DNA of 64,000 nucleotides, taken from contig QHVT01000003.1 of the NCBI GenBank assembly GCA_003223645.1, positions 434,001-498,000 of the forward strand, read 5' to 3'. The position numbers and the translations under genes were made by a program. The stretch's first letter is position 1. Every line of letters begins with the position of its first letter. Source of the stretch: Acidobacteriota bacterium (GTDB taxonomy: Bacteria; Acidobacteriota; Thermoanaerobaculia; Gp7-AA8). Below, piece by piece: positions 2 to 49,797 of this stretch. A model generated the notes under the pieces. That model did not search any database, was not told the origin of the DNA, and saw nothing but the letters and a program-made list of their open reading frames with translations.

Positions 2-1366
2 CTGCTCTTCCTGCTGCGCCCACTCCGTTGCCGCGACGACGGGCGTTCCGACGGGCGCGAGCGCGGCGCCGCCGGGCACGAGCAGTTCCTGCTCGCCGAT
101 TTGCACGTGGAGAAAATCGCCGGACGTGCGCGCCTCGGCGTTGGCGGGCAGCGCGACGGGACGCGTCGACGCGGTGGTCGACGTCACGAGCGGATCGGTC
201 GCCGCGCCGAAGCTGATCGTCGACGTGACGCTCGGACGATGCAGCACGGACCAGAACACGTCCGCGCCGAGGAGTTGCTGCCGCTCGACCGGACGCAGTA
301 TCCATCCCTGTCGCAGCATCGCTTCCGCTTCGTCGTCGCGCCTCTCGTTTGCTGCGACGACGGCGAGCGAGTAGTAGACGTCCGCGTCGCGCGAGCCGAT
401 GCGCGCGAGGCGCTGCAGATAGCTGGTCGCGCGCTCGTCGTAGCCGAGGGCCATCAGCGCGTCAGCGGACTCCATCCAGATCGCGTCACGACCGGGACCG
501 AGATTGAGCGCGTGCTCGAACGCGAGCGCGGCGGCCGACTCGTCGCTCTGCATCAGCGCTAGGCGTCCGCGCAGGATCTCGACGAGCGGGATGTCCGAGG
601 GAGAAGGAAACGCATCGAGAGCGCGCTTCGCCGCGTCGACGTTCGTCTGCTGCAGATCGAACTGAATCTTCCAGAGCTTCGCAATCGTGTTCGCGCCGGC
701 TTCGACGACGCCGTTGCCCGAGGTGACGGCGCGACGAAGGGGCAACAAACTTCGGAGCGCCGTCTGAGTGGAGCGGCGGGCTCTTAGCCCGCCGACGTCG
801 GCTTCCGGCGGGCTAAGAGCCCGCCGCTCCACATTCCAATACGGAATCACGACCAGCGCGAGGGCGGCCGCGATCATCACGATTTGAATGCTGCGGCGCG
901 CGCTGAGAAATGCGGCACCCGCGGTGAGCGCAGCAGCGAGCAGCACCAGCGCGAGTGGTTTTTGATTGTCGACCGGAGAAAGCGGCGGCGTAGCCGCCGC
1001 AGTCCAAAGAGGTTTCTTCTCCGACGGCTGCGCGAGAAAACGGATGTCGTAGATCTTCCCGTCTCTCATCTCGAAGATCAGCGCGTCATCGAATCCCGAC
1101 GGATACGACACCGAGAACGCCGCCATCTTGTCCTTGAGCGCCGGCACGACCGTCTGCAACTGCCACTGCGCGCCTTCGCGCGGTCCGACGCGTACTTCGA
1201 TCTCCTCGTCGAGATTCGGCAGCATGCGCAGCGGCGAATCCTTCGAGAGGTTCTCGTGGATCGCCGCCGGTCCGCGGCTCAGGTAATCCGCCGCGATCCG
1301 CACTCCCGCGTGCTCCGCGTCCGAGATCGGGCGGACAGCCAGCACCAGGGCGAGAACGAAGTTCAT
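2..1366 (-). CDS. Membrane-anchored TPR protein, C-terminus beyond window edge
   Basis: I read one open frame from an ATG at 1366 down to base 2 with no stop, giving 455 codons, so the C-terminus lies outside the window. The N-terminus has a short hydrophobic stretch (MNFVLALVLAV). Two hydrophobic segments follow at about residues 140-177. After residue 200 comes an alpha-helical region with tetratricopeptide-like helices, for example around ALAFEHALNLGPGRDAIWME. Residues about 179-200 are encoded by a palindromic mini-element (768-832) that stays in frame. The gene diverges from the GntR regulator with an 85 bp gap. No enzymatic motif is visible. A role as a protein-protein interaction scaffold is inference. 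Confidence 0.7.
   Translation of the reverse strand, partial: MNFVLALVLAVRPISDAEHAGVRIAADYLSRGPAAIHENLSKDSPLRMLPNLDEEIEVRVGPREGAQWQLQTVVPALKDKMAAFSVSYPSGFDDALIFEMRDGKIYDIRFLAQPSEKKPLWTAAATPPLSPVDNQKPLALVLLAAALTAGAAFLSARRSIQIVMIAAALALVVIPYWNVERRALSPPEADVGGLRARRSTQTALRSLLPLRRAVTSGNGVVEAGANTIAKLWKIQFDLQQTNVDAAKRALDAFPSPSDIPLVEILRGRLALMQSDESAAALAFEHALNLGPGRDAIWMESADALMALGYDERATSYLQRLARIGSRDADVYYSLAVVAANERRDDEAEAMLRQGWILRPVERQQLLGADVFWSVLHRPSVTSTISFGAATDPLVTSTTASTRPVALPANAEARTSGDFLHVQIGEQELLVPGGAALAPVGTPVVAATEWAQQEEQ
768..832. repeat. Palindromic mini-element (GTGGAGCGG family) inside a gene
   Basis: A 65 bp near-perfect inverted repeat begins GTGGAGCGGCGGGC and ends with the complement GCCCGCCGCTCCAC. 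It lies inside the TPR gene and is translated in frame as roughly 22 residues (starting VERRALSPP). The same terminal sequence recurs at 4583-4652, 22394-22479 and 24179-24267. Confidence 0.9.
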
Positions 1367-2732: not shown

Positions 2733-4583
2733 ATGAGCAGCACATTAGTGATCGCGAGCCGCGAGCTTCGCGAACGATCGAGAGTGTTCGTGATGGCGGG
2801 GGCGATGGCCCTGATGCCGTTCCTTGCCGCGCTGATTCCGGCGGTGAGCAGTGACCGTCCGCAGGCGATCGCCGGGGTAGGCGGATTCCTCGGCGTGGCG
2901 ATGGCGCTCGGCGTCGCGCTCGCGCTGGGCGGATCGACGATTGTTGGTGACCTGGTCTCGCGGCGGATGTCGTTTTACTTTTCCAAACCGGTTTCACCTG
3001 CCGCGATCTGGTTCGGGAAGATGCTCGCCGCGCTCGCGATGAGCGTCGCCTGCTTCGTGATCATCGCGGCGCCGGCGTTTCTCGCGACGGGCAATCAATG
3101 GATCGCGACGTTCGGCGGCACGCGCCTTCTTCCTTACCTGGGCGGCGGCATTCTGCTGATGTTCCTCATCAGCCACACGCTCAACACGATGGTGCGCTCG
3201 CGCTCCGCGCTGGTGGGACTCGACTTCGTCCTGACCGCCGTGTGTCTCGGCGCGATCTTCTACATCGTGAAGCCCCTCGTCCTTGCGGGCGCCGTGATCG
3301 GACTGATTCTCCTCGGCATCATCGGCGGAGCGATCATCCTGACGCTCTTCTTCGCGCCGCTCTGGCAACTCGCGCGCGGGCGCAGCGACATCAAACGGAG
3401 CCACATCGCGCTTTCGCGCGCGATCTGGACGTCGGCGGTGATCGTGCTCGCCGTGGCCGGCCTGTATGCCGCGTGGGTGGTGAATGTCGCGCCGAAGGAT
3501 TTCACGTACATCGTCGACCTCGAACAATCGCCGGGCGGCAACGCGATTTTCCTCACCGGCGCGACGCCTGCGCGCGGCGACTATCGCGCGTCGTACATCG
3601 TCGATCTGAACAGCGGCAAGTATGAGCGGATCGACACGCTGCCGTGGTGGGGAGTGCGCTTCTCGCAGAGCGGCAACGCCGTGGCGTGGATGCAGCCGGT
3701 GTCGCTGATCAAGCCCGCGGAGCAGCTCGAGATTTACACGAAGCGGCTGGATCAGCCGGACGCGCGTGCGGTCGCGACGGGAATCCGGCGAAGCATGGGC
3801 AACGACTTCGCGCTCTCGCCGGAAGGCACGCGCGTCGTGGTCGCGAGCGCTCAAACGATCGCGGTGCAGGATCTGGCGTCGCATCGCATCCTCGCGTCCG
3901 TTCCGAAGAGCGGCTTTGCGGTCGAGCTCTACTTCGTCACACCCGACGTGGTCCGCGTGCATCTGGCGCATCCCAACTCCTCGACGCTGGAGATCTACGA
4001 GCTCGACATCCCGTCGAAGAAGTTCGTGAAGACCGGTGAAGTGACCACGGACCGCACGTACGTGAACGCGCACGTGTCGCCCGACGGCTCACGCATCGTT
4101 CTTCCGCGATCGGGCGTCGTGGCGGACGCGCGGACCGGCGCGATCGTGACGAAGCTGCCGGTGGTCATGCCCAGTCACGCCGGTACGGCGATTCTGAGCG
4201 ACGGAACGATCGCGGTCTCGAAGCACGCCAAAGGCGCTCCGCAAGTCACGCTGTCGCTCTTCGCTCCCGACGGCACGCTGAAGCACGAAGTCGCGCTGCC
4301 GGGGCGCGGCGGCTGGATCATGGCAGAGGTGGAAGGCGGGAAGCTGGTCGTGATGAACAGCCTGGGCGAGAACGACGCGAGCGGAAACAAATCTCGAATG
4401 TACGTGGTCGATACCGCGCGCGGCACGATCGAGCGGGCGATCAACGATCTGCACGGACCGTGGAACTGGCGTAATCCGCAGCTCGCGCATTTCTCCGCGA
4501 ACGCGAAGCTCGTCGCGGTCAACGGGGACCGAAAGCTCGTGACGTGGAACCCGACGACGGGAGCGGTGACGCCGCTGAAGTAG
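2733..4583 (+). CDS. ABC-2 permease fused to a C-terminal WD40/propeller-like domain
   Basis: This 616-residue protein has about six membrane segments in residues 1-245 (for example LMPFLAALIPAV and AVIGLILLGIIGGAIIL), typical of ABC-2 transporter permeases. It is followed by about 370 residues of beta-rich repeats containing FSQSGNAVAW, LSPEGTRVVVAS, VSPDGSRIVLP and HFSANAKLVAVNG, which resemble blades of a WD40/TolB-like propeller. The propeller is unusual on an exporter permease and probably lies outside the membrane. The stop codon TAG is at the edge of a palindromic element. The start ATG is 1 nt after the ATPase stop, indicating translational coupling. Confidence 0.88.
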   Translation: MSSTLVIASRELRERSRVFVMAGAMALMPFLAALIPAVSSDRPQAIAGVGGFLGVAMALGVALALGGSTIVGDLVSRRMSFYFSKPVSPAAIWFGKMLAALAMSVACFVIIAAPAFLATGNQWIATFGGTRLLPYLGGGILLMFLISHTLNTMVRSRSALVGLDFVLTAVCLGAIFYIVKPLVLAGAVIGLILLGIIGGAIILTLFFAPLWQLARGRSDIKRSHIALSRAIWTSAVIVLAVAGLYAAWVVNVAPKDFTYIVDLEQSPGGNAIFLTGATPARGDYRASYIVDLNSGKYERIDTLPWWGVRFSQSGNAVAWMQPVSLIKPAEQLEIYTKRLDQPDARAVATGIRRSMGNDFALSPEGTRVVVASAQTIAVQDLASHRILASVPKSGFAVELYFVTPDVVRVHLAHPNSSTLEIYELDIPSKKFVKTGEVTTDRTYVNAHVSPDGSRIVLPRSGVVADARTGAIVTKLPVVMPSHAGTAILSDGTIAVSKHAKGAPQVTLSLFAPDGTLKHEVALPGRGGWIMAEVEGGKLVVMNSLGENDASGNKSRMYVVDTARGTIERAINDLHGPWNWRNPQLAHFSANAKLVAVNGDRKLVTWNPTTGAVTPLK

Positions 4584-4652
4584 TGGAGCGGCGGCCGCTC
4601 TCGGCCGCCGGATTCTCGCGGGGGTCGGCGCCCGAAGCGGGCGCCGCTCCAC
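4583..4652. repeat. Palindromic mini-element between converging genes
   Basis: GTGGAGCGG and CCGCTCCAC arms enclose two smaller perfect hairpins (GGCGGCCG/CGGCCGCC and GGCGCCCG/CGGGCGCC). The element fills the whole gap between the permease and rplT. Both genes end in TAG exactly at its edges. It probably also acts as a bidirectional terminator, which is inference. Confidence 0.88.
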
Positions 4653-10748: not shown

Positions 10749-10807
10749 GGAAACTTGTGGTTAACGGGCGAATGGCGCCTGGTTCATGCTTTGAGCGCAC
10801 CGGCCGG

Positions 10808-10985
10808 GAACGCAGAACGCAGAACGCAGAACGCAGAACGCAGAAGGCTGAAGGCTGAAGGCTGAAGGCTGAAGGCTGAAGGCAGAAGGCAGAAGTAAGA
10901 AGTGAGAAGCACGCCCCCCGGCCGCGCCTCTGGGGGCGGGTTTCTTAATTCTGACTTCTGCGCTCTGCGTTCTGCATTCCTGAGC
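10808..10985. repeat. Seven-base tandem repeat array with inverted partner
   Basis: About 14 heptads run in a row: GAACGCA x4, GAAGGCT x5, GAAGGCA x2 and degenerate units to about 10910. From about 10944 the complementary type (TTCTGCG-like units) runs back, so the region can form a long hairpin. Frames through it give low-complexity peptides (LRSAF, LQPSAF repeats) that I do not accept as genes. Shorter relatives lie at 11064-11090, 12930-12960 and 25105-25192. Confidence 0.85.
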
Positions 10986-11477
10986 CGTGCGCGATGATCG
11001 TGCCTCGAGCACAAGCGCCACGAGCCGGCCAGCACGCACGTCCTTCCGCATTACACCCGGCCGGGAACGCAGAACGCAGAACGCATTCTGCGTTACGCAA
11101 TCGCGGCGATCTGTCTCGCCATCGCTCGCGTCCTAAGCCGCTTCCTCGGAACGTTAAGACTTCTCCTCATCCGATCAAAGCGTTTGGTCCGAAGATCAGG
11201 GTCGAGGCTCAACGCCTGACCATCACGTCTCCTGACGATGACTCGTGCACTCGAAACGAATGCACGCGTGCTCGTCGGATCAAACGTTCCTGGCGATTTG
11301 AGACTCGCGTCTGTCGCGTCAGGAGGTGCCTGTCTCTCGTTGAGACGCGGTTCTTATCTTTCGAGACGACTGTGGGTCAACGCGTGATCAACACGTCATC
11401 CGAGGATCACGCGTGTGTCTCAAAAACGAGTGAATGCGCGATCTTCGGATCAAAAACTCTAACGATTCGAGACTCGC
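10986..11477. other. Gene-poor spacer with degenerate repeats
   Basis: No frame here has a recognisable protein, ribosome-binding site or homology. The stretch holds another short GAACGCA run (11064-11090) and degenerate GTCTCGCG-like and GAGACGCG-like units from about 11280. These look like a decayed part of the 21-nt array that follows. Confidence 0.6.
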
Positions 11478-11645
11478 GTGTCTCGCGTTGAGACGTGCTT
11501 GTCTCGCGTCGAGACTCGCGTGTCTCGCGTTGATACTCGAGTGTCTCGCGTTGATACTTACGTGTCTCGCGTTGATACTCGCGTGTCTCGCGTTGATACT
11601 CGCGTGTCTCGCGTTGAGACGTGCTTGTCTCACGTTGAGAGACGC
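11478..11645. repeat. Array of eight 21-nt repeats (GTGTCTCGCGTTGATACTCGC type)
   Basis: Eight consecutive 21-nt units share TGTCTCGCGTTGA and vary at the 3' end (actcga, acttac, actcgc, gagacg). As 21 is a multiple of three, both strands give heptapeptide-repeat frames, which I regard as by-products. A second array with the same CTCGCG core and 21-nt period occurs at 49440-49797. Confidence 0.88.
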
Positions 11646-18342: not shown

Positions 18343-19367
18343 TGGCCTCCCTCCGCACACGTCTCTTCCTCGGCGCGTTCGTCTGGATGCTGGCGATGGC
18401 CGCCGTCGCGAACGTGATCGCGTTTCTGTTCGTCGGCCCGGTACTCCACAACTACGCCGGACGTTACATCATCGTGAATCGCGTCACGGGCGGCAATGAG
18501 GTCCGCCACATCCAGCACCTCCTGGCAATGACGTCGGGGGCGCTCCTGCTCGTTGCGGCCGGTCTGTGGCTGATCCGAAAGAGCCTCGCGCCGTTCAATG
18601 AAATGCGAAATCGCCTCGCCGCCGTCCGCGACGGCAGCGAGCACACGATTCCGGGCAATTATCCGTCCGAGGTGCAGCCGCTGGTGAATGATCTCAACGC
18701 GCTGCTCGACGATCGCGAGCGTGCCATTACGCGCGCATTGGCGACCGCAGGCGATCTCGCGCACGGATTGAAAACGCCGCTGGCGATTCTCGCGCAGGAA
18801 GCGGAGCGCGCGAAAGTCGCGGGAGACAGCGAGCGCGCGACGATCATCGAACAGCAAGTGGAGCGAATGCGGAGGCAGATCGATTATCACCTCGCGCATG
18901 CGCGTGCGACGGCGTCTGCAGGTGCGGCGCCGGGTGTGCGTTCGCAGGTGGCCACCTCAGTCGAAGGCCTGACGCGTACATTACAACGACTGTATGCCGA
19001 TCGCGGGTTGACGATCGACACCGACGTCGCGCCGGAACATTACGTGCGCGTTAAGCGGGAAGACCTCGACGAAATGCTGGGTAATTTGCTCGATAACGCG
19101 TGCAAATACGCGCAATCGCGCATTACAGTGACCTCGCGACAGTCGGAATTGGCCGGCATTGTGATCATCGATGACGATGGCCCGGGTCTCGATCCGTCGA
19201 TGCACACTGCCGTCTTACAACGCGGTGTTCGCGCCGACGAAGCCGCGCCCGGCTCCGGCCTCGGCCTGGCGATCGTGCGCGATCTCGCTTCGCTCTACAA
19301 CGGCTCGATCACGCTCGGCACTTCGCCCGCCGGCGGATTGCGCGCGAGGTTGGAGCTCCCCGTGTAG
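18342..19367 (+). CDS. PhoQ-like sensor histidine kinase
   Basis: This 341-residue kinase has two membrane helices (about residues 8-32 and 62-78) around a very short external loop. A HAMP-like segment follows. The phospho-acceptor box DLAHGLKTPLAILAQE contains His141; its HxLKTPL form is that of PhoQ-type kinases. The ATPase domain has an N-box (LGNLLDNACKYAQ), G1 DDDGPGLDPS and G2 GSGLGLAIVRDLA. The ATG shares one base with the regulator's TAA. The small sensor loop suggests sensing at the membrane. The stop TAG sits at the edge of a palindromic element. Confidence 0.93.
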   Translation: MASLRTRLFLGAFVWMLAMAAVANVIAFLFVGPVLHNYAGRYIIVNRVTGGNEVRHIQHLLAMTSGALLLVAAGLWLIRKSLAPFNEMRNRLAAVRDGSEHTIPGNYPSEVQPLVNDLNALLDDRERAITRALATAGDLAHGLKTPLAILAQEAERAKVAGDSERATIIEQQVERMRRQIDYHLAHARATASAGAAPGVRSQVATSVEGLTRTLQRLYADRGLTIDTDVAPEHYVRVKREDLDEMLGNLLDNACKYAQSRITVTSRQSELAGIVIIDDDGPGLDPSMHTAVLQRGVRADEAAPGSGLGLAIVRDLASLYNGSITLGTSPAGGLRARLELPV

Positions 19368-19419
19368 GGCAGGTTTTTCTAACCTGCCGCCCGGGGGGCA
19401 GGCTGGAAAGCCTGTCCTA
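19365..19419. repeat. Palindromic element (GGCAGGCTGGAAAGCCTG family) between converging genes
   Basis: TAGGGCAGGTTTTTCTAACC and GGCAGGCTGGAAAGCCTGTCCTA form outer arms with two internal stems. It overlaps the kinase stop codon on the plus strand. On the minus strand it encodes the last residues of the GGDEF/EAL protein (VGQAFQPAPRAAG). A second copy is at 30931-30980. Confidence 0.85.
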
Positions 19420-21760
19420 CACCGCTGCTCTGTGCTTCTGCCATCCACGCGCGGAATTCCGGCGCCGGCAGCGGCTTGCTGATGAAATATCCCTGTGCCA
19501 TGTCGCAGCCGAGTCTCTTCAGAATCTGCCAGGCCTCGTCGTTTTCCACGCCTTCGGCGATCACGCGCAATCCCATGTTGTGTCCAAGCTCGATCGTCGA
19601 CCGCACGATGACGATGTCGTCCGTCGCGGCATTGCGCAGATTGAGCACGAACGATTTGTCGATCTTCAGTTCATCGACCGGCAATCGTTTGAGGTGGGCG
19701 AGCGACGAATACCCGGTGCCGTAATCGTCAATCGCCAGCTTCACGCCGCGATGTTTCAGGTCGCGCAGGATCCGCAACGCATAGATCGGATCCTTCATGA
19801 CCGCGCTCTCTGTGATTTCCAGGACGAGCTTCGACGGCGGCAGTCCGACTTCGCTCAGGAGGCCGCTGATGTACGTCGGCAGTTCCGCGTCGAACAAATC
19901 GAGCGCTGACAAATTTACGGCCACTGTCAGCTCGACCCCCGACGCGTTCCATTCGCCGCAATGCGTAATCGCCTTCCGCAGCACCCACTTCGTGATCATG
20001 CTGATGTTGCCCGACTGCTCGGCCAGCGGAATGAATTCGTCGGGCTTCAGATGTCCGTGCACGGGATGTTTCCACCGCACGAGCGCCTCGGCGTGCACGG
20101 CCTTTCCTGTGCGCACGTCGATTTTCGGCTGATAGTGCAGGTCGAGCTCGTCGCGAGCGATCGCGTGGCGCAACTCGGACAGGATCGCCAATCGCCGCAG
20201 TGAATGTTCGTCGCGGCCCGGCTCGTATATCGCGTACTGCAGGTGATTTTTCTTCGCGTCGTACATCGCGATGTCGGCGCGTTTCATCAGCGTCGCCGCA
20301 TCCTCGGCATGCGAGGGAAAGAGCGCGATGCCCATGCTGCCGGCGACTTCGATCGATACGCCGCCGAGGAGGAACGGAGTGACGAGCGCGGCGCCGATGC
20401 GCTGCGCGACGTCGATTGCGCGCGACTCGTCGTCGGCGAGAAACATGACGGCGAATTCGTCGCCGCCAAGGCGCGCGACCGTGTCGGCCTCGCGCAGCGT
20501 CTGGCGAAGACGGCGGCCGATCTCGATCAGCAATTGATCGCCGAAGTGATGGCCGAGCGTGTCGTTGATCTCCTTGAAGCGATCGAGATCCATCATGATC
20601 ATGCCGACGAGCGAGGAGTTTCGCTTCGCGCCGACGATGGAGTAGGCAACGCGGTCGAAGAACAGCGTCCGGTTCGGCAGTCCGGTCAGACTGTCGTGCG
20701 TCGCCTGCACCCAGATCTGCTCTTCACGCTCGGCGATCGCCTTGCGCATCTTGTCGAACGCGCCGGCGAGTTTTCCGATCTCGTCCTTCTGCCGGAACTC
20801 GAGGCCCGACGAGTAGTCGCCTTTCTCGATCTGCTGCGCCTCGGCCGCGAGGCGGTGCAGCGGACTGCTCACGCCGCGTGCGAAGAAAATCGCCGCGATG
20901 ACGGCGCCGATCAGCGCGAGCAGCGACAGCGCGAAGATTTGCAACTCGAGTTTGCGATACGGCCGGCGCGCCTCTTCGATCGACCGTTGCAGCAACATCT
21001 GAATATGCGAGCCGTCGCCGGTGACGAGCGGATGCAACAGCACCTGAAACGGATCGTTGTCGAGTTGGATCGTCGCCGTCGCGTCGCTGCGGCGCGGCCC
21101 GAGTTGCTGCATCTGCGATGCGAGCTCGGTGCGCTGCTGCTGCCGCAGCGTCGACACCATCAGCGGATTCTCGGCCGCCGGGTTCCACACCGAAGCGTCG
21201 AGAAGCGTCAGGCTGCGGACTTCGTTCAGCACCCGGTCGTCGATCGGGAATCCCATGCAGACCCAATCGATCGGGCGCGGCGCGAGGATCGGCACGATCA
21301 CGAATTGATATGGACGCCCTTCGAATGAAACGAACGCCGTCGACTCGCCGTGCTTCGCGGCTTCGCTGAGCAGCGACGGAACGGGAAACGGGCGGCCGAA
21401 GTACTGACCGCCGAGCGTACCGGCGAGCACGGTGCCGTCGAGCGAGATCAGGAACGCCGCGTCGGCGTGGACGCGATCGGCGTGATTGTTGAGCGCGGAG
21501 ACGATGGTGCCGCGATCGGCCGAGGCGACGGCCTCGCGAAACGCGAAGTCGGACGCCAGCGCGCGCACGGCGATCGAGAGTTGCCGTCCGCGGAGAGTGA
21601 GAGTCTGATCGAGCACCCGGCTGCCGACGTGCAATTCGTCATCGATGCTGCGCCGCATCGTCCGGTCGCCCGCGACGTGCACCGCGATCAGGATCGCGGC
21701 CAGCAGCAGCACCAGCACTGCGACTGTCAGATAAACGAGCTTCGCCTGGAAGCTGCGCAT
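19379..21760 (-). CDS. Membrane-bound GGDEF/EAL cyclic-di-GMP enzyme
   Basis: This 793-residue protein has a membrane helix at 10-30 and a periplasmic sensor region (about 31-270). A second helix lies at 272-293, then HAMP (about 295-348), GGDEF with intact LGGDEF (432-436) and an EAL domain with EALVRW (558-563) and IDDYGTGYSS. Both catalytic signatures look intact, so it may both make and break c-di-GMP. The C-terminal VGQAFQPAPRAAG is encoded by a repeat element. It starts 2 nt after the MauL-like gene, and with that gene and the porin it forms a three-gene module. Confidence 0.93.
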   Translation of the reverse strand: MRSFQAKLVYLTVAVLVLLLAAILIAVHVAGDRTMRRSIDDELHVGSRVLDQTLTLRGRQLSIAVRALASDFAFREAVASADRGTIVSALNNHADRVHADAAFLISLDGTVLAGTLGGQYFGRPFPVPSLLSEAAKHGESTAFVSFEGRPYQFVIVPILAPRPIDWVCMGFPIDDRVLNEVRSLTLLDASVWNPAAENPLMVSTLRQQQRTELASQMQQLGPRRSDATATIQLDNDPFQVLLHPLVTGDGSHIQMLLQRSIEEARRPYRKLELQIFALSLLALIGAVIAAIFFARGVSSPLHRLAAEAQQIEKGDYSSGLEFRQKDEIGKLAGAFDKMRKAIAEREEQIWVQATHDSLTGLPNRTLFFDRVAYSIVGAKRNSSLVGMIMMDLDRFKEINDTLGHHFGDQLLIEIGRRLRQTLREADTVARLGGDEFAVMFLADDESRAIDVAQRIGAALVTPFLLGGVSIEVAGSMGIALFPSHAEDAATLMKRADIAMYDAKKNHLQYAIYEPGRDEHSLRRLAILSELRHAIARDELDLHYQPKIDVRTGKAVHAEALVRWKHPVHGHLKPDEFIPLAEQSGNISMITKWVLRKAITHCGEWNASGVELTVAVNLSALDLFDAELPTYISGLLSEVGLPPSKLVLEITESAVMKDPIYALRILRDLKHRGVKLAIDDYGTGYSSLAHLKRLPVDELKIDKSFVLNLRNAATDDIVIVRSTIELGHNMGLRVIAEGVENDEAWQILKRLGCDMAQGYFISKPLPAPEFRAWMAEAQSSGVGQAFQPAPRAAG

Positions 21761-21762
21761 CG

Positions 21763-22344
21763 CTATTTCCGCACTGTGACGACGAGCTCTTGATTGTCTG
21801 AAGCGGCGAGCGTGAGCGGTACGGGCGCGGGCTCGGTGGTCATGTCGGGATACCACACGCGCAGCGAATACTTGCCCGCGCCGACCGACGAGATCGCACC
21901 GCGTCCTTTCCTGTCTGTCGTCGCGAAGTACGGCGTGTCGACGACGACGACGTACGCGGTCATGCGATCGTGAATGCTGCAACCGAGGGAGACCACGCCG
22001 GCGCGATCGAACACGACCGGGTTCGCGGGCGTGCCTTTGTACAACGGAATCTGAAACTGCTTCGCCGACGAGAACGAGTAGACCTGATGGCGGATGTCGT
22101 CGCTGTTCGGAAAGCGCACCGAGGTGCCGGTCTGCACCGGCAAAACGTGCGGCACGAACATGCGGTTCTTCTGATCCATGATCGCCGACTTTTTCGCCAA
22201 CGGCAGCTCGCGTCCCTCGGGGACGGCGTAGACGACGGCGTCGTTGACGGCACCGCCGCGCGCGTCGCGCACCGTCACGTTGACCGTCGCCGCGCGCGCA
22301 AGCGGACCGAGCAAAAGAAGAAGAAGGGGAAGGGTCCGGGTCAT
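21763..22344 (-). CDS. Secreted MauL-like protein with cupredoxin and carboxypeptidase-regulatory features
   Basis: This 193-residue protein has a clear signal peptide (MTRTLPLLLLLLGPLARA). The mature part opens with VNVTVRDARGGAVNDAVVYA. It then shows FVPHVLPVQTGTSVRFPNSD and the cluster SLGCSIHDRM, which resembles the copper-site region of cupredoxin-fold proteins annotated as methylamine utilisation protein MauL. It is co-directional with a porin upstream and a GGDEF/EAL protein 2 nt downstream. Copper binding is inferred from the Cys and His residues and is not proven. Confidence 0.75.
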   Translation of the reverse strand: MTRTLPLLLLLLGPLARAATVNVTVRDARGGAVNDAVVYAVPEGRELPLAKKSAIMDQKNRMFVPHVLPVQTGTSVRFPNSDDIRHQVYSFSSAKQFQIPLYKGTPANPVVFDRAGVVSLGCSIHDRMTAYVVVVDTPYFATTDRKGRGAISSVGAGKYSLRVWYPDMTTEPAPVPLTLAASDNQELVVTVRK

Positions 22345-22393
22345 GTTGCAAGACTCAAGCGCAACGATCCGCCGGAGATTCCAAACATCTCGT

Positions 22394-22479
22394 GTGGAGC
22401 GGCGCCCGCCCTCGGGCGCCGAGGGCATTCGCATTCGACAGGCGAGACATTCGGCGGCCGAGGGCGGCCGCCGCTCCAC
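22394..22479. repeat. Palindromic mini-element (GTGGAGCGG family)
   Basis: GTGGAGCGGCGCCC at the left and GGCGGCCGCCGCTCCAC at the right surround two internal hairpins (GGCGCCCG/CGGGCGCC and GGCGGCCG). It separates the porin from the MauL-like gene. The porin's TAG stop (22481-22479) begins at its right edge. Confidence 0.9.
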
Positions 22480-23543
22480 TAGTGAAAGCTGTAACGCAGT
22501 TCGACGATCACACGCTGCTCCCCATCCGAAGTCGTCACTTCGAATCCGGGGCGCAGGTGTCCGGGCGGCGTCCAGAGGAATGCGAACGTGAGCGCGCGCT
22601 CGTGCGTCCTGGCCTTGAAGTCGTCCGCGCGCAGCGTTGCGCGGAAGCGCGGGAAGCGGCGCGAGACGAGCGCGTAGCTCGCGCGCAGATCGGTCGTGTA
22701 CTTCACGCCTTCGACGATGAGGAACGACGGTCCCCATCCGCTTTCGGCTGCGAGCGTCCAGTCGCCCTGCGAATACTCGCCGCTGACGATGTCGAAGCGC
22801 GTGCCCCAGTTGAAGAGGCGTCCGTAGGGGAGACCGTCGCCGCGGTTGTCGATGTGCGTCAGCTGCACGAGCGCGTTCGCGCCGGTCCACGCGCCGCGCG
22901 CGGACCAGCCGGCGCGATGATCGTTTTCGGCGGAGGCGGACGTGTAGTAATCGGGATCGACGGGAATCCATTCGCCGAGGGTGATCCAGTGATCGCGCAT
23001 CGACCAGCCGCGCTCGACGGGGATGCCGCCGAACGTGTCGTTGCCGCGATAGATCGTCCCGCCGGCGGTGAGACCGCGATGCGTGAACGACGCGTCGATG
23101 CCGATCGGACGGAACTCTTCGCCGAGCCAGCTGTTCAGCGCCGACGGCGTGATCGTGTACGCCGGCTCCCACAGCGCGTCGACGTTCTCGCGCGACGTCT
23201 GTAGAAAGAACGCGCCGCCGCGCAGCCGCACGTATTTGTTCCGCGCCTCGAGATACGCCTCGACGATGCCGAAGTGTCCGCGCCGCGCATTGGCGTCGTC
23301 GCTGCGCGCGAGGAGATGCACGTGCGCCGCGAAAAACGGAGAAGGCGACCAGTCGACGCCGACGTGCAGCTGCGCGGAGAGCTCTTTCTCGCGGAGCGTG
23401 GTCGTGTCGGCGCCGTTCGATGCGCGCAGCAACGCGAAGCCGCTCCATTGCAGGGCGCCACCGGCATTTGCGTGAGACGCAAACGCGAGGACGAGCACGG
23501 CGAGGCCTGCTGAAGCGTGGCGCACTCGCGAACAGGATCGCAC
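22479..23543 (-). CDS. Predicted outer-membrane beta-barrel (porin-like) protein
   Basis: This protein of about 354 residues has a signal peptide (GLAVLVLAFASHANA, then GGALQWSGFALL). The rest shows alternating hydrophobic/aromatic beta strands (FFAAHVHLLAR, FGIVEAYLEAR, YVRLRGGAFFLQT) and the C-terminal strand RVIVELRYSFH. The annotated GTG at 23543 gives a long n-region; a GTG about 18 nt downstream is an alternative. It heads the module with the MauL-like and GGDEF/EAL genes. Palindromic sites matching a regulator box at 26472 lie just upstream. Confidence 0.72.
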   Translation of the reverse strand: MRSCSRVRHASAGLAVLVLAFASHANAGGALQWSGFALLRASNGADTTTLREKELSAQLHVGVDWSPSPFFAAHVHLLARSDDANARRGHFGIVEAYLEARNKYVRLRGGAFFLQTSRENVDALWEPAYTITPSALNSWLGEEFRPIGIDASFTHRGLTAGGTIYRGNDTFGGIPVERGWSMRDHWITLGEWIPVDPDYYTSASAENDHRAGWSARGAWTGANALVQLTHIDNRGDGLPYGRLFNWGTRFDIVSGEYSQGDWTLAAESGWGPSFLIVEGVKYTTDLRASYALVSRRFPRFRATLRADDFKARTHERALTFAFLWTPPGHLRPGFEVTTSDGEQRVIVELRYSFH

Positions 23544-23574: not shown

Positions 23575-23642
23575 ATTTACGGACGCGCCCGGCGGCGCTG
23601 CTCTCTGCGAGCGACCGGAAAAACGCGGTCTGACCGTTGCCC

Positions 23643-25103
23643 ATGAAGCGCGGCGTGCTTCGCGATCGAAAGCTCGCCGTTCTCGCCGCCGCGTCGGTCG
23701 TCGTGCGCATCGCGTTCATCTTCACGCACCGCATCGACTCCGATGAGCCGCAGCATCTGCACGTCGCGTGGGCGTGGAGCCGCGGACTCGTGCAGTACCG
23801 CGACGTCTTCGACAATCACTTCCCGCTGCTGCATCTCCTCTTCGCGCCGCTGATGGGCGTGATGCCGGAGAGCTCGGCGGTGTTCGTGATCGCGCGCTTC
23901 GCGATGCTGCCGATCGCGCTCGCGTGCTCGTACTTTGTCTATCGCATCGCCGAGCCGTTGATCGGCGAACGGAAGGCGGCCATCGCCGCGATCGTGTTCA
24001 GCGTGATGCCGCCGTGGCTGCCGAAGAGCGTCGAGTTCCGCAACGACACACTGTGGATTTTTTTCTGGCTGGCGATGCTGGCGCTGCTCGCGCGGAGGGA
24101 CTATTTCTGGTCCGGCGTTGCCGCCGCACTTTGTCTTCTCGCGTCAGTGAAGGCGCTGCCGCTGTTTCTCGCGATGGCCTGTGGAGCGGCGCCCGCCCTC
24201 GGGCGCCGGGATTCTCGCGATCGGCTAGCGATGCTTTCGGCGGCCGAGAGCGGCCGCCGCTCCACAGTGCGAGTCGCCTTCGGCTTCGCGATCCCGCTCC
24301 TCGTCACCGCACTCTTTTTCGCCGCGTACGGCGCGCTCGATGACATGTTGTACGCGACGCTCTTCTTCAACGCGTCGCTGCCGGTGCATGCGGCGCGGCG
24401 GATCGGCGGGGCGGTGGCGTTCGCGGCGGTCGCGCCGCTCGCGTTTCGTCGCGCGAACGTCGCGGTCTGGTACGGCCTGGTGATGCTCTGCTTCTGGCCG
24501 AGCCTTTCGCCGCGCGATTTTCTGCCGCTCGTTCCGCTCGCCGCGATCGCGCTCGCGTCGACGCGCATTCCTGCGATCGCGCTCTTCGTCGTGATGGCCG
24601 CCGCGAGCGTGTGGTGCTTGGAGCCCGGCGATCACTCGCGGCAGCAGTTCGTCGACGCCGCGGTCAAGCTCACGACGCCGAACGAATACGTCTTCGATCT
24701 GAAAGGCAACGCCGTTTTCCGGCGGCGTCCGATCCGTTCGATCTACGACATCGTCGGCCGCGCGCTCTTCCGCAACGACGGCGCGCCCGCGCAGATCGTC
24801 GCGCGCCGCTGCTGCGTCGCCATCGACGACATGTCGCACATCCCGCCGGCCACGCGCGCGTTCCTCAATCAGAACTTCGTCGACATCGGACCGCTTCGCG
24901 TCTGCGGCAGCGTCGCGCGCGACGGCGCATTCACGATCGCGATTCCGCAAACGTACGCCGTGGTCGCGCGCGATCCCGCGCGCGTGACGATCGACGGCAT
25001 GCCGTATCGCGGCCCGCGATTTCTCGCCGCCGGCCGCCACACGCTCGCCGCCGCGGAGCCCGTGACCGTCATCTGGTGGCGCGCGGTGAAAGGAAAGCGA
25101 TGA
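23643..25103 (+). CDS. Membrane glycosyltransferase (ArnT/GT-C type) with in-frame palindromic insert
   Basis: This protein of about 486 residues has roughly ten membrane helices. Its early charged motif RIDSDEPQHLHVAW follows helix 1, and the acidic residues there match the catalytic loop of GT-C dolichol/undecaprenyl-phosphate sugar transferases. Residues about 180-208 (CGAAPALGRRDSRDR... to RRST) are encoded by the palindrome 24179-24267 and interrupt a helix-rich region without breaking the frame. ATG 23643 was preferred over an upstream TTG. It overlaps the next gene by ATGA. It likely glycosylates an envelope lipid or protein. Confidence 0.82.
   Translation: MKRGVLRDRKLAVLAAASVVVRIAFIFTHRIDSDEPQHLHVAWAWSRGLVQYRDVFDNHFPLLHLLFAPLMGVMPESSAVFVIARFAMLPIALACSYFVYRIAEPLIGERKAAIAAIVFSVMPPWLPKSVEFRNDTLWIFFWLAMLALLARRDYFWSGVAAALCLLASVKALPLFLAMACGAAPALGRRDSRDRLAMLSAAESGRRSTVRVAFGFAIPLLVTALFFAAYGALDDMLYATLFFNASLPVHAARRIGGAVAFAAVAPLAFRRANVAVWYGLVMLCFWPSLSPRDFLPLVPLAAIALASTRIPAIALFVVMAAASVWCLEPGDHSRQQFVDAAVKLTTPNEYVFDLKGNAVFRRRPIRSIYDIVGRALFRNDGAPAQIVARRCCVAIDDMSHIPPATRAFLNQNFVDIGPLRVCGSVARDGAFTIAIPQTYAVVARDPARVTIDGMPYRGPRFLAAGRHTLAAAEPVTVIWWRAVKGKR
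24179..24267. repeat. Palindromic mini-element inside the glycosyltransferase gene
   Basis: CTGTGGAGCGGCGCCC and its partner GGCCGCCGCTCCACAG bound 89 bp with two inner hairpins, nearly the same as the intergenic copy at 22394-22479. It is translated in frame as about 29 residues between two hydrophobic segments. Confidence 0.9.
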
Positions 25104-26269
25104 ACGCAGAACGCAGAGCGCAGAACGAAGAATTGAGAAGGTCTTCGGGTGGGCTTTCGCCTTCTCCGTTCTGCGCTCTGCGTTCTGCGTTGCGGGCCAG
25201 TGCGCTGTGTCTGGCCTTGGCCTTTTCCTTCGCGCCAGTGACACTTGCACAACAGTGGCGCACATTCGCCGGCGGATTCAGCTCGCGCTGGAACACGATC
25301 GGGCATCACGGACACGATCAATTCTGCGCCAACGACTGCGACGCCGACGATTTCGGACGCGCGAACCTCGACGACTCGATCGGATTTCGCGCCGGACGCG
25401 AGCGCGATTTCTGGAGCGCCGGCGCGCTGCGCATTGCCGGCGGCGCGGACGCGAGCGTGAATCACACCGAGTACAACTCGAGCCAGCGCGACTTCTCCGT
25501 CGTCAGCGTCGCGATGTTCGCCGGCGCCGATCTCGATCTCTCCGGCTTTCGCATCGGCGCGCGTTACGGCGCGGGCGGATACGTGACGACGACCGAAGAG
25601 CAATCCGGCGCGATCCGTTTCTTCGAGATCGGCGCGACGATTCCGCTTCGCCGGGGGGCGGGCGTGCGGATCGCGAGGCGCACGTTCGAGATGACGCGCA
25701 TGGGCACCGGTCCGTCGCGCGACATCTCGATCGCGTTCGTCACTTCCGGCGACGCGCGCGGCGAATCGAATTGGGAGTTCGGCACCTCGACCGGCACGAC
25801 GATGCCGGGCGCGGGATTCGGCGGCGACCGCAAACTGCGCAGCACGTCACTCAATCGCATGAGCGTGCTGCGCACCTTTCGCCGCGTGCAGTTCGAGTTG
25901 TCGTGGTCGTCGACCGCACACGAGTCGTCGTTACCGTCGGTCTTTCGCGGCTACGACGGCAACTTCCGTAGCAAGACGATCGAAGGCTACGGCCTCGGCG
26001 TCGTGCAGTCGCACGCCCTCACGCGCGCGCTGTCGCTGCGCTGGAGCGGCGGCGTCGAAGTCGCCGACTGGCGCGACGATCACAAGCTCCTCACGCGCGA
26101 CGGCAAAGAGCTCGTCGCCGGCATCGAGCTCGCGCTCGCCGCATCGGCAGGCGTGCGCCTGCAACTCCAGCCGCACCTCGCCATCGAGTCGTCCCTGCAG
26201 CAACTCTACTGGCGCGCCCTCGACCTCGGCGAGCTGCGATGGACGACCGGGATCGTACTGACGCGGTGA
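25100..26269 (+). CDS. Predicted outer-membrane beta-barrel protein, unknown function
   Basis: This protein of about 389 residues has an unusual N-terminus: MNAERRAQNEELRRSSGG, then a hydrophobic signal (ALCLALAFSFAPVTLAQ) with AQQW at the cleavage site. The remainder is beta-rich with repeated Gly and aromatic strands (FRIGARYGAGGYVTT, LSLRWSGGVEVADW) and ends in ELRWTTGIVLTR. The first 30 codons are made of GAACGCA/TTCTGCG heptads, the same simple repeat seen at 10.8 kb. The true start might therefore be further in, nearer the signal peptide. It overlaps the glycosyltransferase by ATGA. Confidence 0.7.
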   Translation: MNAERRAQNEELRRSSGGLSPSPFCALRSALRASALCLALAFSFAPVTLAQQWRTFAGGFSSRWNTIGHHGHDQFCANDCDADDFGRANLDDSIGFRAGRERDFWSAGALRIAGGADASVNHTEYNSSQRDFSVVSVAMFAGADLDLSGFRIGARYGAGGYVTTTEEQSGAIRFFEIGATIPLRRGAGVRIARRTFEMTRMGTGPSRDISIAFVTSGDARGESNWEFGTSTGTTMPGAGFGGDRKLRSTSLNRMSVLRTFRRVQFELSWSSTAHESSLPSVFRGYDGNFRSKTIEGYGLGVVQSHALTRALSLRWSGGVEVADWRDDHKLLTRDGKELVAGIELALAASAGVRLQLQPHLAIESSLQQLYWRALDLGELRWTTGIVLTR

Positions 26270-26274
26270 CGTCG

Positions 26275-26461
26275 CCCCTCATCCGGCCTTCGGCGCCCTT
26301 CTCCCCGCAAGGAGGAGAGCGGGCGTCCCGCCCGCCCCCGGGAGGCGGGCAGGATGCCCGCTCTCCTCCTTGCGGGGAGAAGGGCGACGAGGGATGTTTT
26401 CCGTGTTGCCCCTCGCCCCGCTTGCGGGGAGAGGGTGGCGCGAAGCGCCGGGTGAGGGGCC
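26275..26461. repeat. Nested palindromic repeats
   Basis: A CCTTCTCCCCGCAAGGA/TCCTTGCGGGGAGAAGG palindrome is split exactly at its centre by a complete GGAGAGCGGGC...GCCCGCTCTCC element (26314-26366). A further CCCCTCGCCCCGCTTGCGGGG...GGTGAGGGG repeat follows (26404-26460). The arrangement shows one element family inserted into another. Confidence 0.85.
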
Positions 26462-28490: not shown

Positions 28491-29578
28491 TTCGCGCGCA
28501 GTCGATCGCCGCGTTTCTCCTCGCCGTCATCGGACCGACGCTGTTGTTCTGGATGGTCATTCACCAGGTGTCGGGCTTGTGGCTCGACGTGGCGCTGCGC
28601 CCCGAGGTGCGGCAGGCGTTGCAGCAATCGATGGAGGACCAGAAGCGATTGCGATCGATGGACGCGGCGCATCGCGATGCGTACCGCAAGCGATTCGAGA
28701 CGACGGGCACGCTGCTGCATCGATTGGACGTCATTCGGATGAATCGTGCGCAGATGCTGCAGCGGTTCGAGATCACGGTCGTCGCGATCTTCGCGCTCGT
28801 TGCGATCGTCGTGGCCGCGTCGGTGACGATGCGCGCGCGGCGCGCACGCGCGCTGGAGCAGAAGCAGTACCTCGATCGCGTGTCGGTGCTGCAGGAGAAC
28901 GCGCGGCGTCACGCGCACGAGACGAAAGGTCCGCTGACCGCCGCGCGACTCGAGCTCGAGCGCGCCGGCGATGCGCTGCGCGGCGGCGCGACCGACGACG
29001 TTGCGAACGCGTTGCAGAGCGTCGCCGACGAGATCGATCGCTTGTCGCGACTCACGCGCAACCAGGCATCGTTCGCCGCGATCGGCAGGCCGGTCTTGCG
29101 CGAAGTCTCGCTGCGCACCGCCGTCGAAGAATTCTGCGCGACGTTCGCCGATGCCTGGCCGAATGTCACGCTGCGCTGCTCCGGCGGCGACGCGACGGTC
29201 TGCGCGGACCGCGACATGCTGCGGCAGGTGCTCGTCAACCTCTGCACGAACAGCGCGCTGGCGATGGAAGGAGAGCGGGCGTCCCGCCCACCCACGGGGG
29301 GCGGGCAGGATGCCCGCTCTCCTCACGGCACCATCACGTTCGCGATTTCGAAGCGGGCGATCGATGTCACCGACACCGGCGGCGGGATCGCCGAGTCGCT
29401 GCGCGCGCGCGTGTTCGATCCGTACGTGACGACACGCAGGACAGGGGAAGGGATGGGACTCGGATTGGCGATCTCGCGCAAGATCATGCTCGACCACGGC
29501 GGCGACCTGCAGCTCGCGTCGACGTCGAACGTGGGCACGACGTTTCGCGTGCTGTTCGGAGACAAAGAATGCAGTTGA
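28487..29578 (+). CDS. Sensor histidine kinase with in-frame palindromic insert
   Basis: This 363-residue kinase has two membrane helices (about 6-26 and 95-113) flanking a helical external domain. The H-box is ARRHAHETKGPLTAARLEL with likely His144. The N-box is VNLCTNSALAME, then DTGGGIAES and GMGLGLAISRKI. Residues about 262-279 (GERASRPPTGGGQDARS) come from a palindromic element (29270-29322) placed between the N-box helix and the next strand; this loop tolerates length variation in the fold. It overlaps its sigma-54-dependent regulator by 10 nt. Confidence 0.92.
   Translation: MIRAQSIAAFLLAVIGPTLLFWMVIHQVSGLWLDVALRPEVRQALQQSMEDQKRLRSMDAAHRDAYRKRFETTGTLLHRLDVIRMNRAQMLQRFEITVVAIFALVAIVVAASVTMRARRARALEQKQYLDRVSVLQENARRHAHETKGPLTAARLELERAGDALRGGATDDVANALQSVADEIDRLSRLTRNQASFAAIGRPVLREVSLRTAVEEFCATFADAWPNVTLRCSGGDATVCADRDMLRQVLVNLCTNSALAMEGERASRPPTGGGQDARSPHGTITFAISKRAIDVTDTGGGIAESLRARVFDPYVTTRRTGEGMGLGLAISRKIMLDHGGDLQLASTSNVGTTFRVLFGDKECS
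29270..29322. repeat. Palindromic element inside the kinase gene
   Basis: GGAGAGCGGGCGTCCCGCCC and GGCGGGCAGGATGCCCGCTCTCC form a 53 bp inverted repeat nearly identical to that at 26314-26366. It is translated in frame in the ATPase domain of the histidine kinase. Confidence 0.9.
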
Positions 29579-30930
29579 TCCTCGTAGTCGAAGACGACGA
29601 GAAGATCGCCGCGAACCTCACGCTGCGTCTGCGCGAGGAAGGCTACGGCGTCGTGCGCTTTCGGCGCGCGGAGGACGCGCTCGCGTATCTGCGCGACGCG
29701 CACAACGTGCAGCCGGACATGGCGCTGCTCGATGTCCGCCTGCCCGGCATGAGCGGCATCGAATTGCTGCGCGTCGCCGGCGAAGTGATGCCGGCCGCGA
29801 TCGTGATCTCCGGCGAAGCCACGATGGCCGAGACCGTCGAAGCGATCCGCCTCGGCGCGCACGATTTCATCGACAAGCCGTTCACGCGCGAGCGTCTGCT
29901 CAAGTCGGTGCGCAACTGTCTCGAGCGCGAGTCGCTGCGATTGCAGGTGCGCGCGCTGCGCGATCAGGGACAGGAAATCGTCGGCCGCTCCGACGCGATT
30001 CAGACGCTGCGCGCGACGATCGACAAAGTCGCTCCGACCGATTCGCGCGTGCTCATTCGCGGCGAGAGCGGCAGCGGCAAAGAGCTCGTCGCGAACGCGC
30101 TTCATCGCCTGAGCCGCCGCGTGTCGCGCACGTTCGTGCGGCTGAACTGCGCGGCGATTCCGTCGCATCTCATCGAAGACGAACTGTTCGGCCACGCGCG
30201 CGGCGCGTTCACCGACGCCAAGACCGCGAAGCGCGGGCTCTTCGAAGAAGCCGACGGCGGGACGCTCTTTCTCGACGAGATCGGCGACATGGAGCCGGCG
30301 CTGCAGGCGCGCCTGCTGCGCGTGCTCGAAGACGGACGCGTGCGACGCATCGGCGAGACCACCGATCGCAAAGTGAACGTGCGTGTCCTCGCGGCAACGC
30401 ATCGCGACGTCGAGTCGATGTCGCAGTCCGGAAGTTTTCGCGAAGACCTCTTCTTCCGCATCGCCAGCGTCCCCATCGACGTTCCGGCGCTGCGCGAGCG
30501 ACGCGACGACGTGCCGCTCCTCTTCTCGACGTTCCTCCAGCACTTCTGCGCACGCAGCCAGCGCACCGCGCTCTCCATCGACGCCGCGGTCTACGACGCG
30601 CTGAGCAAATACGCGTGGCCCGGCAACGTCCGCGAGCTGCGCAACCTCGCCGAGCGGCTGTCCGTCTTCGGCACCGATCCCGTCACCGTCGAGCAGCTCC
30701 CGTCGACGATCCTCAATCCCGGCGCATCCGAAAGCGGCATCGTCCGCATCACCGAAGGCGCGACGGTGATGCCGCTGCGCGATTTCAAAACGCAGTGCGA
30801 AAAGGAGTACATCGAGTCCGTCCTCCGCCGCACGCACTGGAACATCAGCCGCGCCGCGCAGCTGCTGGACCTGCAGCGCACGTACTTGCACGAGAAGATG
30901 GCCGCGCTCGGGATCACGCGGCCGGAGTAG
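29569..30930 (+). CDS. NtrC-family sigma-54-dependent response regulator
   Basis: This 453-residue protein has a receiver domain with Asp55 (MALLDVRLPG) and an AAA+ domain with Walker A GESGSGKE (165-172). The sigma-54 contact loop reads GAFTDA (212-217) where the consensus is GAFTGA. FLDEIGDM and PGNVRELRNLAERL follow. A C-terminal Fis-type helix-turn-helix (HWNISRAAQLLDLQRTYLHE) completes it. It should activate the -24/-12 promoter at 26575 by binding the palindrome at 26472, making an autoregulated envelope operon; this is inference. The stop is TAG at a repeat-element edge. Confidence 0.95.
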   Translation: MQLILVVEDDEKIAANLTLRLREEGYGVVRFRRAEDALAYLRDAHNVQPDMALLDVRLPGMSGIELLRVAGEVMPAAIVISGEATMAETVEAIRLGAHDFIDKPFTRERLLKSVRNCLERESLRLQVRALRDQGQEIVGRSDAIQTLRATIDKVAPTDSRVLIRGESGSGKELVANALHRLSRRVSRTFVRLNCAAIPSHLIEDELFGHARGAFTDAKTAKRGLFEEADGGTLFLDEIGDMEPALQARLLRVLEDGRVRRIGETTDRKVNVRVLAATHRDVESMSQSGSFREDLFFRIASVPIDVPALRERRDDVPLLFSTFLQHFCARSQRTALSIDAAVYDALSKYAWPGNVRELRNLAERLSVFGTDPVTVEQLPSTILNPGASESGIVRITEGATVMPLRDFKTQCEKEYIESVLRRTHWNISRAAQLLDLQRTYLHEKMAALGITRPE

Positions 30931-30980
30931 CGCAGGCTTTCCAGCCTGCGCCCCCGGAAGGCAGGCTGGAAAGCCTGCCC
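30931..30980. repeat. Palindromic element, CAGGCTGGAAAGCCTG family
   Basis: CGCAGGCTTTCCAGCCTGCG and GGCAGGCTGGAAAGCCTGCC form two stems in tandem directly after the TAG of the NtrC-type gene. A small further stem (GTAGGGAAATCCCT...) lies at 30995-31015. Together they may terminate the operon. Confidence 0.82.
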
Positions 30981-31030
30981 CACACCAAAAGCCGGTAGGG
31001 AAATCCCTCGCTACGGACACTCCTACCTGA

Positions 31031-40763: not shown

Positions 40764-40904
40764 GGAGCCTCTGAACAAGTGAGAACATCCGTCATCCTGA
40801 GCCGCGAAGACGGCGAAGGATCTCTAAATGCGCAACGTTTGCGTGACTGAGATCCTTCGGCGTCTTCGCGCCTCAGGATGACGGACTTTTCAGAAGTTCC
40901 CTAG
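40762..40904. repeat. Full-length palindromic element, GTCATCCTGAGC family
   Basis: Outer arms AGGGAGCCTCTGAA/TTCAGAAGTTCCCT enclose inner arms GTCATCCTGAGCCGCGAAGA/GTCTTCGCGCCTCAGGATGAC and AAGGATCTC/GAGATCCTT. The 143 bp unit can fold nearly end to end. The same outer arms occur in the two copies at 49142-49429. Confidence 0.9.
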
Positions 40905-49141: not shown

Positions 49142-49429
49142 AGGAAACCTCTGAACAAGTCGTCATCCTGAGCCGGCGAAGCGCGGCGAAGGATCTCAAA
49201 ATGCGAAACGCTTGCAATTTCGAGATCCTCCGCCGTCTATGCGACTCAGGATGACGTGCATCAGATGTTGTTCAGCGCTTCCCTAAGGAACCTCTGCACA
49301 AGTGTCATCCTGAGCCGCGAAGACGGCGAAGGATCTCCCGCCGACGGAGCGCTGGTCGTGCTTCGGCCGGGGATTCCTCGCCGTCTTCGCGGCTCGGAAT
49401 GACACGACACAATTGTGCAACGCTTCCCT
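49142..49429. repeat. Two tandem palindromic elements, GTCATCCTGAGC family
   Basis: Copy one (49142-49284) and copy two (49286-49429) each have outer arms AGGAAACCTCTGAACAAG or AGGAACCTCTGCACAAG and TTGTTCAGCGCTTCCCT or TTGTGCAACGCTTCCCT, with inner GTCATCCTGAGC/CAGGATGAC arms. They sit head to tail after the glycoside-hydrolase gene and differ in the central loop. Confidence 0.9.
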
Positions 49430-49439
49430 GACGTGTGAA

Positions 49440-49797
49440 AAATTTTGAGTCGCGAATCAAACTTTGACTGGTCGGGTCAACGTTTTGATTGACGCGACAA
49501 GACCTTTGCCTCGCGAGACAAGACCTTTGCCTCGCGAGACAAAACCTTTGCCTCGCGAAGCAAGTTTTTGATGCGCGCGGGCAGAATCATTGCCTGGCGA
49601 GTCGAAGTTTTTGCCTCGTGAGGAACATCCTGAGCTTCACACGGCAAATTTGAATACGCGAGGGGTCAAAACTTTGACTCGCGAGGGCAAACAGTTTTGT
49701 CTCGCGAGTCAAAGGTTTTGTCTCGCGAGGCAAACCCAATTGCTCGCGAGTCAACCACGTTGTCTCGCCAATCAACCGTTTGCCTCGCGCGGCGGCG
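49440..49797. repeat. Second 21-nt repeat array (CCTCGCGAGACAAGACCTTTG type)
   Basis: Three regular 21-nt units (GACAAGACCTTTGCCTCGCGA) at about 49496-49560 are followed by degenerate copies with the CTCGCGAG core up to the DUF885 stop codon. No convincing gene lies in this stretch; the frames give heptapeptide repeats only. The core and period match the array at 11478-11645. Confidence 0.8.

Follow-up and report, generated by a model that had tools for sequence, protein, structure and literature searches.

How a short palindromic element comes to be translated within a membrane protein, and what it does to its host, are the questions raised by a glycosyltransferase gene in the window studied here (the whole stretch analysed, 64,000 nucleotides of an Acidobacteriota genome). 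With its flanks, the element reads CT-GTGGAG...CTCCAC-AG (24179–24267, 89 bp, the ends given in an earlier note on this DNA), of which TGTGGAG...CTCCACA (24180–24266, 87 bp) corresponds to 29 codons. Each end is a 27-nt REP, consisting of a GTGGAGC tag followed by a G+C-rich hairpin, and the two REPs are inverted around a spacer (Table 1). The tag is GTGG, a recorded variant, versus the canonical GTAG found 5′ of the REP hairpin. The intergenic sister copy mentioned in the earlier note was readily recovered; its final base also belongs to the TAG stop codon of a minus-strand gene (22479–23543). REPs and spacer together fold into one hairpin: as single-stranded DNA, the target and the sister copy reach −39.8 and −44.3 kcal/mol (z −5.3 and −8.4), and none of 200 dinucleotide shuffles folds as well as either; as RNA, the target copy reaches −67.5 kcal/mol (z −6.3). 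The inverted-repeat structure of both copies is not due to chance. We are confident that the 89-bp stretch is one copy of a REPIN. Such mobile elements are non-autonomous, consist of a pair of REP hairpins in inverted orientation and would here be moved by a REP-associated tyrosine transposase (RAYT).

Table 1. The glycosyltransferase gene, its element and the other copies of the family in the window
Feature	Positions	Strand	Description
Membrane glycosyltransferase gene, PMT_2-like, complete	23643..25103	+	486 aa from ATG 23643
REPIN core GTGGAG...CTCCAC	24181..24265	+	85 bp, in frame in the glycosyltransferase gene
Left REP	24181..24207	+	tag GTGGAGC + hairpin GGCGCCCG-CCCT-CGGGCGCC; sequence reading
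Spacer separating the two REPs	24208..24238	.	sequence reading
Right REP, inverted	24239..24265	-	hairpin GGCGGCCG-AGAG-CGGCCGCC + GCTCCAC; sequence reading
Intergenic sister copy	22394..22479	.	86-bp core; sequence, motif search, ssDNA fold
GGGCTCTTAGCCC-arm subfamily copy, same ends	768..832	.	in frame in a minus-strand 852-aa long ORF (genome C21:432871-435426)
Fourth window copy	4583..4652	.	70-bp core, classed outside genes

The family is abundant and dispersed in this genome. The pattern GGAGCGGC-N45..75-GCCGCTCC occurs at 201 places in the 6.38-Mb genome, versus 4 for the reversed control. When 18 genomes of the taxonomic family were scanned, it was found at no place in the same-genus genome G001 and at 0–8 places in each of 16 other genomes, where the interiors are mostly unrelated. 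Since a looser motif search yielded mostly chance matches, copies of at least 50 bp were collected with a strict motif over the 2.59 Mb that were readable (41% of the genome). This search gave 111 copies, the majority of 69–72 bp, and the length of the family elements ranges from 60 to 94 bp. Subfamilies differ by their arms: 57 copies have two GGCC arms, 38 have one GCCC and one GGCC arm, and a few have GGGCTCTTAGCCC arms with the same ends as the other subfamilies. At G000:C10:73696-74288, four copies lie in tandem with a 175-bp spacing, which suggests local amplification together with the flanking DNA.

The window also harbors repeats of other kinds. A separate family of palindromic mini-elements (GAGCGGGCGTCCCGCCC...GGGCAGGATGCCCGCTCTCCTC) is represented at 26313–26368 and 29269–29324 by copies that are 95% identical, and REP-like, GTAG-tagged GTAGGGCAGG...CCTGCC palindromes lie at 19359–19423, overlapping the 3′ end of ORF 19379–22351, and at 30922–30986. 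A further dispersed palindrome, of the inverted-repeat family CGTCATCCTGAGCCGCGAAGACGGCGAAGGATCTC, is found at 40790–40883, 49184–49256 and 49302–49405. Finally, there are a 21-bp tandem array of GAGACTCGCGTGTCTCGCGTT (11448–11640), a large inverted repeat of TTTGCCTCGCGAGACAAGACC units (49485–49775) and intergenic blocks of the 7-bp repeat ACGCAGA/CTGCGTT (10803–10889 and 25097–25205).

The glycosyltransferase carries the element as 29 codons, in frame; a TTG at 23637 is a possible alternative start. Its homologues (34–42% identity) can be aligned with it on both sides of the insert, between residues 14 (approximately) and 483 of 487, so that the reading frame is real and the element does lie in frame in a membrane glycosyltransferase, as first noticed. 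The element residues are missing from these homologues; that all of them share these residues, the outcome that the earlier note had set against its own reading, was not seen. A search of genome contigs with the glycosyltransferase found no relative. The distance from a conserved K to an IP/VP position is 26–43 residues in 17 homologues, and 47 residues in the window protein with the element or 18 without it. The net gain is thus 4–21 residues versus 29 encoded: the element does encode the announced 29 residues or so, but it is not a simple addition of that length, and most of the stretch joining two membrane helices is now encoded by the element. To judge from its intact, conserved frame, the glycosyltransferase may still be active.

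How often copies lie in genes was assessed with a fifth-order coding model of our own, trained on element-free ORFs and scored on 180-bp flanks, rather than with a standard gene caller; the resulting gene classes cover 41% of the genome. In this classification, 17 of the 111 copies (15%) are in frame in an ORF with a coding signal on both sides, 5 (4.5%) break the frame between same-strand coding flanks, 2 lie between coding flanks on opposite strands, 47 have coding sequence on one side and 40 on neither side. For random 71-mers, the corresponding figures are 51% in frame and 3% same-strand broken. The family is therefore mostly extragenic, copies being depleted in genes about threefold, and those that break the frame do not clearly exceed the background. 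These figures agree with one half of the earlier proposal that elements keep an open frame or are purged, namely the half concerning broken frames. The hosts of in-frame copies include Nnr, a Uup/EttA-like ABC-F ATPase, an HpnD/phytoene-synthase-like enzyme, a YheT-like hydrolase, a PilT-family ATPase, a Ser/Thr kinase and further membrane proteins.

We estimated the net gain in other hosts, each of which has 24 encoded element residues, from alignment coordinates in relatives, the sequences themselves being read for the glycosyltransferase only. The net gain is 15 residues in 7 of 13 relatives of Nnr (8–18 in the others), 13–18 in 13 of 14 relatives of the HpnD-like enzyme, 1–7 in 11 of 12 relatives of the ABC-F protein and 0–9 for an amino-acid ABC transporter. 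For a glycosidase-like host it is 2–19, as measured on a short aligned fragment because full-length coordinates are confounded by other indels. In the YheT-like hydrolase, by contrast, all seven relatives read indicate a gain of 25 residues for 24 encoded, that is, a clean insertion. Altogether, six of the seven host proteins tested gained fewer residues than the insert encodes, and in these, as far as alignments tell, the element occupies the place of loop or linker residues native to the relatives. Solved homologues of Nnr and CrtM/HpnC have loops at such places. Both flanks of the host genes are conserved in relatives, in one frame; in particular, residues 1–299 of the HpnD-like enzyme fall in a single alignment at 78–79% identity, and residues 1–200 of Nnr align at 71%.

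Two accounts of these small net gains can be given: flanking residues were deleted later, or DNA was exchanged in the insertion event itself. The second is a variant of the REPIN–RAYT explanation that differs in the insertion step, the RAYT joining the hairpin between two target sites so that the intervening DNA, i.e. the native loop, is lost. The deficit in six of seven hosts points that way, as does the fact that elements are intact to their ends though adjoining native residues are missing; however, our search demanded intact ends and would hide deletions that reach into the element. Furthermore, the YheT-like hydrolase has a clean insertion, loop lengths vary among relatives, and later deletions selected for loop length would give an identical picture. 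We therefore consider a one-step replacement unlikely, though the most serious of the alternatives; if it were true, REPIN movement in this lineage would swap protein loops and linkers for element-encoded ones of similar length. Insertion followed by deletion is the more economical account, as later flanking deletions would be favored because they restore loop length.

The in-frame copies are also biased in length and reading phase. A core length equal to 1 mod 3, which should be favored were the core inserted together with 2 bp, is found for 11 of the 17 in-frame copies versus 28 of the other 94 (p 0.011); this excess could reflect subfamily age, but it persists after permutation stratified by subfamily (p 0.017). 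Phases 1, 0 and 2 are used by 11, 5 and 1 in-frame copies, against 27.5, 18 and 54.5% expected for insertion after CT in the genes of this genome (p 0.0002). The common phase reads GAAAASAADFSR... and the rare one LWSGARFGRR..., so that the bias favors an Ala/Gly/Ser-rich peptide. Openness itself is another matter: none of the six frames contains a stop in 81 of the 111 copies, most of which lie outside genes, indicating that openness is a property of the family, owing to its GC-rich, stop-free sequence; that retained elements keep an open frame, as the earlier note put it, is not supported. On average, copies have 5.45 open frames, shuffles 4.65 and genomic stretches 4.20. Filtering thus appears to act on position (15 versus 51%) and on reading phase. 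Note that the GTGG tag, unlike canonical GTAG, contains no TAG. Among the genomes surveyed by Di Nocera et al. (PMC3733652), O. terrae ranks highest in intragenic GTAG repeats, and most of its GTAG-20 elements carry GTGG; a causal link between a TAG-less tag and more numerous intragenic copies is only an idea.

The openness of most copies in every frame, regardless of context, would also suit a spurious in-frame reading, with the ORFs arising by chance in GC-rich DNA or belonging to dead genes and the element being no part of a working protein. We deem this very improbable, given the same-frame homology on both sides of the element in the glycosyltransferase, the HpnD-like enzyme and Nnr, and the biased reading phase.

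A RAYT-type nuclease, for which this genome has a gene, probably spread the REPIN family. The genome's only Y1_Tnp match (C4:53122-53433) lies in a 181-aa ORF (L047:8044-8589, i.e. G000:C4:53044-53589) with the HUH motif DHVHLIV and REYIFNNPVRAGL, which contains the likely catalytic tyrosine. This ORF matches the NCBIfam model of the REP-associated tyrosine transposase (NF047646) with 103.5 bits for a cut-off of 80. An IS200 identity was rejected (22.8 bits, under the cut-off of 55). The gene is flanked by the same repeat, with one copy just upstream (C4:52935-53004), one over its 3′ end (53500-53569) and two further ones at 124-bp spacing (53624-53693 and 53748-53816). Its final 30 or so codons, past the end of the family model, read through the overlapping copy, and the frame continues, so that the last RAYT residues are REPIN-encoded. 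No Y1_Tnp was found in G001, which lacks REPINs. Elsewhere, the nearest RAYT found in a search of genome contigs is 53% identical, belongs to an Acidobacteria gp1 MAG and is flanked by a different repeat, which is what a joint change of RAYT and REP would produce. The palindromes adjoining this relative (AGCGGAGCTTTGCTCCGC..., L226:2601-3000) are perhaps its own REP family.

The ends of the elements are informative as well. CT precedes GTGGAG at 78 of 222 ends, versus 10.8 expected (7-fold), followed by CA (30 versus 11.3), TA (27 versus 2.9) and TT (26 versus 8.1); the glycosyltransferase copy has CT at both sides. CT or CA is the dinucleotide at which cleavage next to the REP is expected in REPIN–RAYT systems. 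TnpA-REP of E. coli cleaves at a CT adjoining the REP, the tag serving as guide (PMC8266576). Palindromy of the flanks beyond the ends was seen at position 3 only, and the target duplication that the earlier note suggested looking for was absent at lengths of 3–10, apart from a single 6-bp case. CT at the ends and the lack of target-site duplication fit a single-strand HUH mechanism, not a DDE transposon. Accordingly, a classical DDE-transposase MITE with a RAYT nearby by coincidence, which would account for short, dispersed copies with terminal inverted repeats, is hardly tenable in view of these ends, the internal two-hairpin REP structure and the copies surrounding the RAYT.

In the REPIN–RAYT explanation, the RAYT, a single-strand HUH nuclease, would nick next to CT and move or copy the hairpin to new sites, and selection would remove most insertions into genes. 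The survivors in genes would be those that keep the frame, bring no stop and fall in a loop, a linker or a helix end, and they would be read mostly in the phase yielding a small, Ala/Gly/Ser-rich peptide.

REPIN–RAYT systems (Bertels and Rainey 2011, PMC3116915; TnpA-REP biochemistry, PMC8266576), intragenic REPs and Rickettsia elements have already been described (PMC3116915, PMC3733652, PMC10969869). Our family shares with the first the inverted REP doublet hairpin, high copy number, mostly extragenic location, copies on both sides of the RAYT, a CT next to the REP and the lack of target duplication; it differs by its GTGG tag and by a RAYT whose C-terminus itself runs through a copy. Moreover, 15% of its copies are intragenic and in frame, whereas in P. 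fluorescens SBW25 an overlap with genes was seen for 14 of 1,067 REP 16-mers (PMC3116915). For intragenic GTAG- or CGTC-tagged REPs and REP dimers, which encode 20–30 residues in unrelated ORFs, tolerance in linkers and loops has been proposed (Di Nocera et al. 2013, PMC3733652); here, the family is new and lies in another genome, and controls were used in measuring intragenic share, frame, reading phase and net gain. As the earlier note anticipated, the element resembles Rickettsia palindromic elements in effect, both being palindromic mini-elements kept in frame in unrelated proteins, and belongs to another family: Rickettsia elements are about 150 bp long or CGTC-tagged and have no known dedicated transposase, whereas ours are 60–94 bp long, GTGG-tagged and accompanied by a RAYT. 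The novelty lies in the family itself, in its 15% intragenic share, in its biased reading phase and in native loops that appear to have been displaced.

The in-frame REPIN shows a route from selfish DNA to protein, although elements of this type have been described before. This genome has a single RAYT and one dominant REPIN family, and the 17 copies found in frame within 2.6 Mb can be scored together for insertion, for frame and phase of reading, and for native residues lost; a net gain below the length of the insert poses a clear alternative between one-step replacement and insertion followed by deletion. The question of how mobile DNA becomes protein thereby becomes testable outside Rickettsia.
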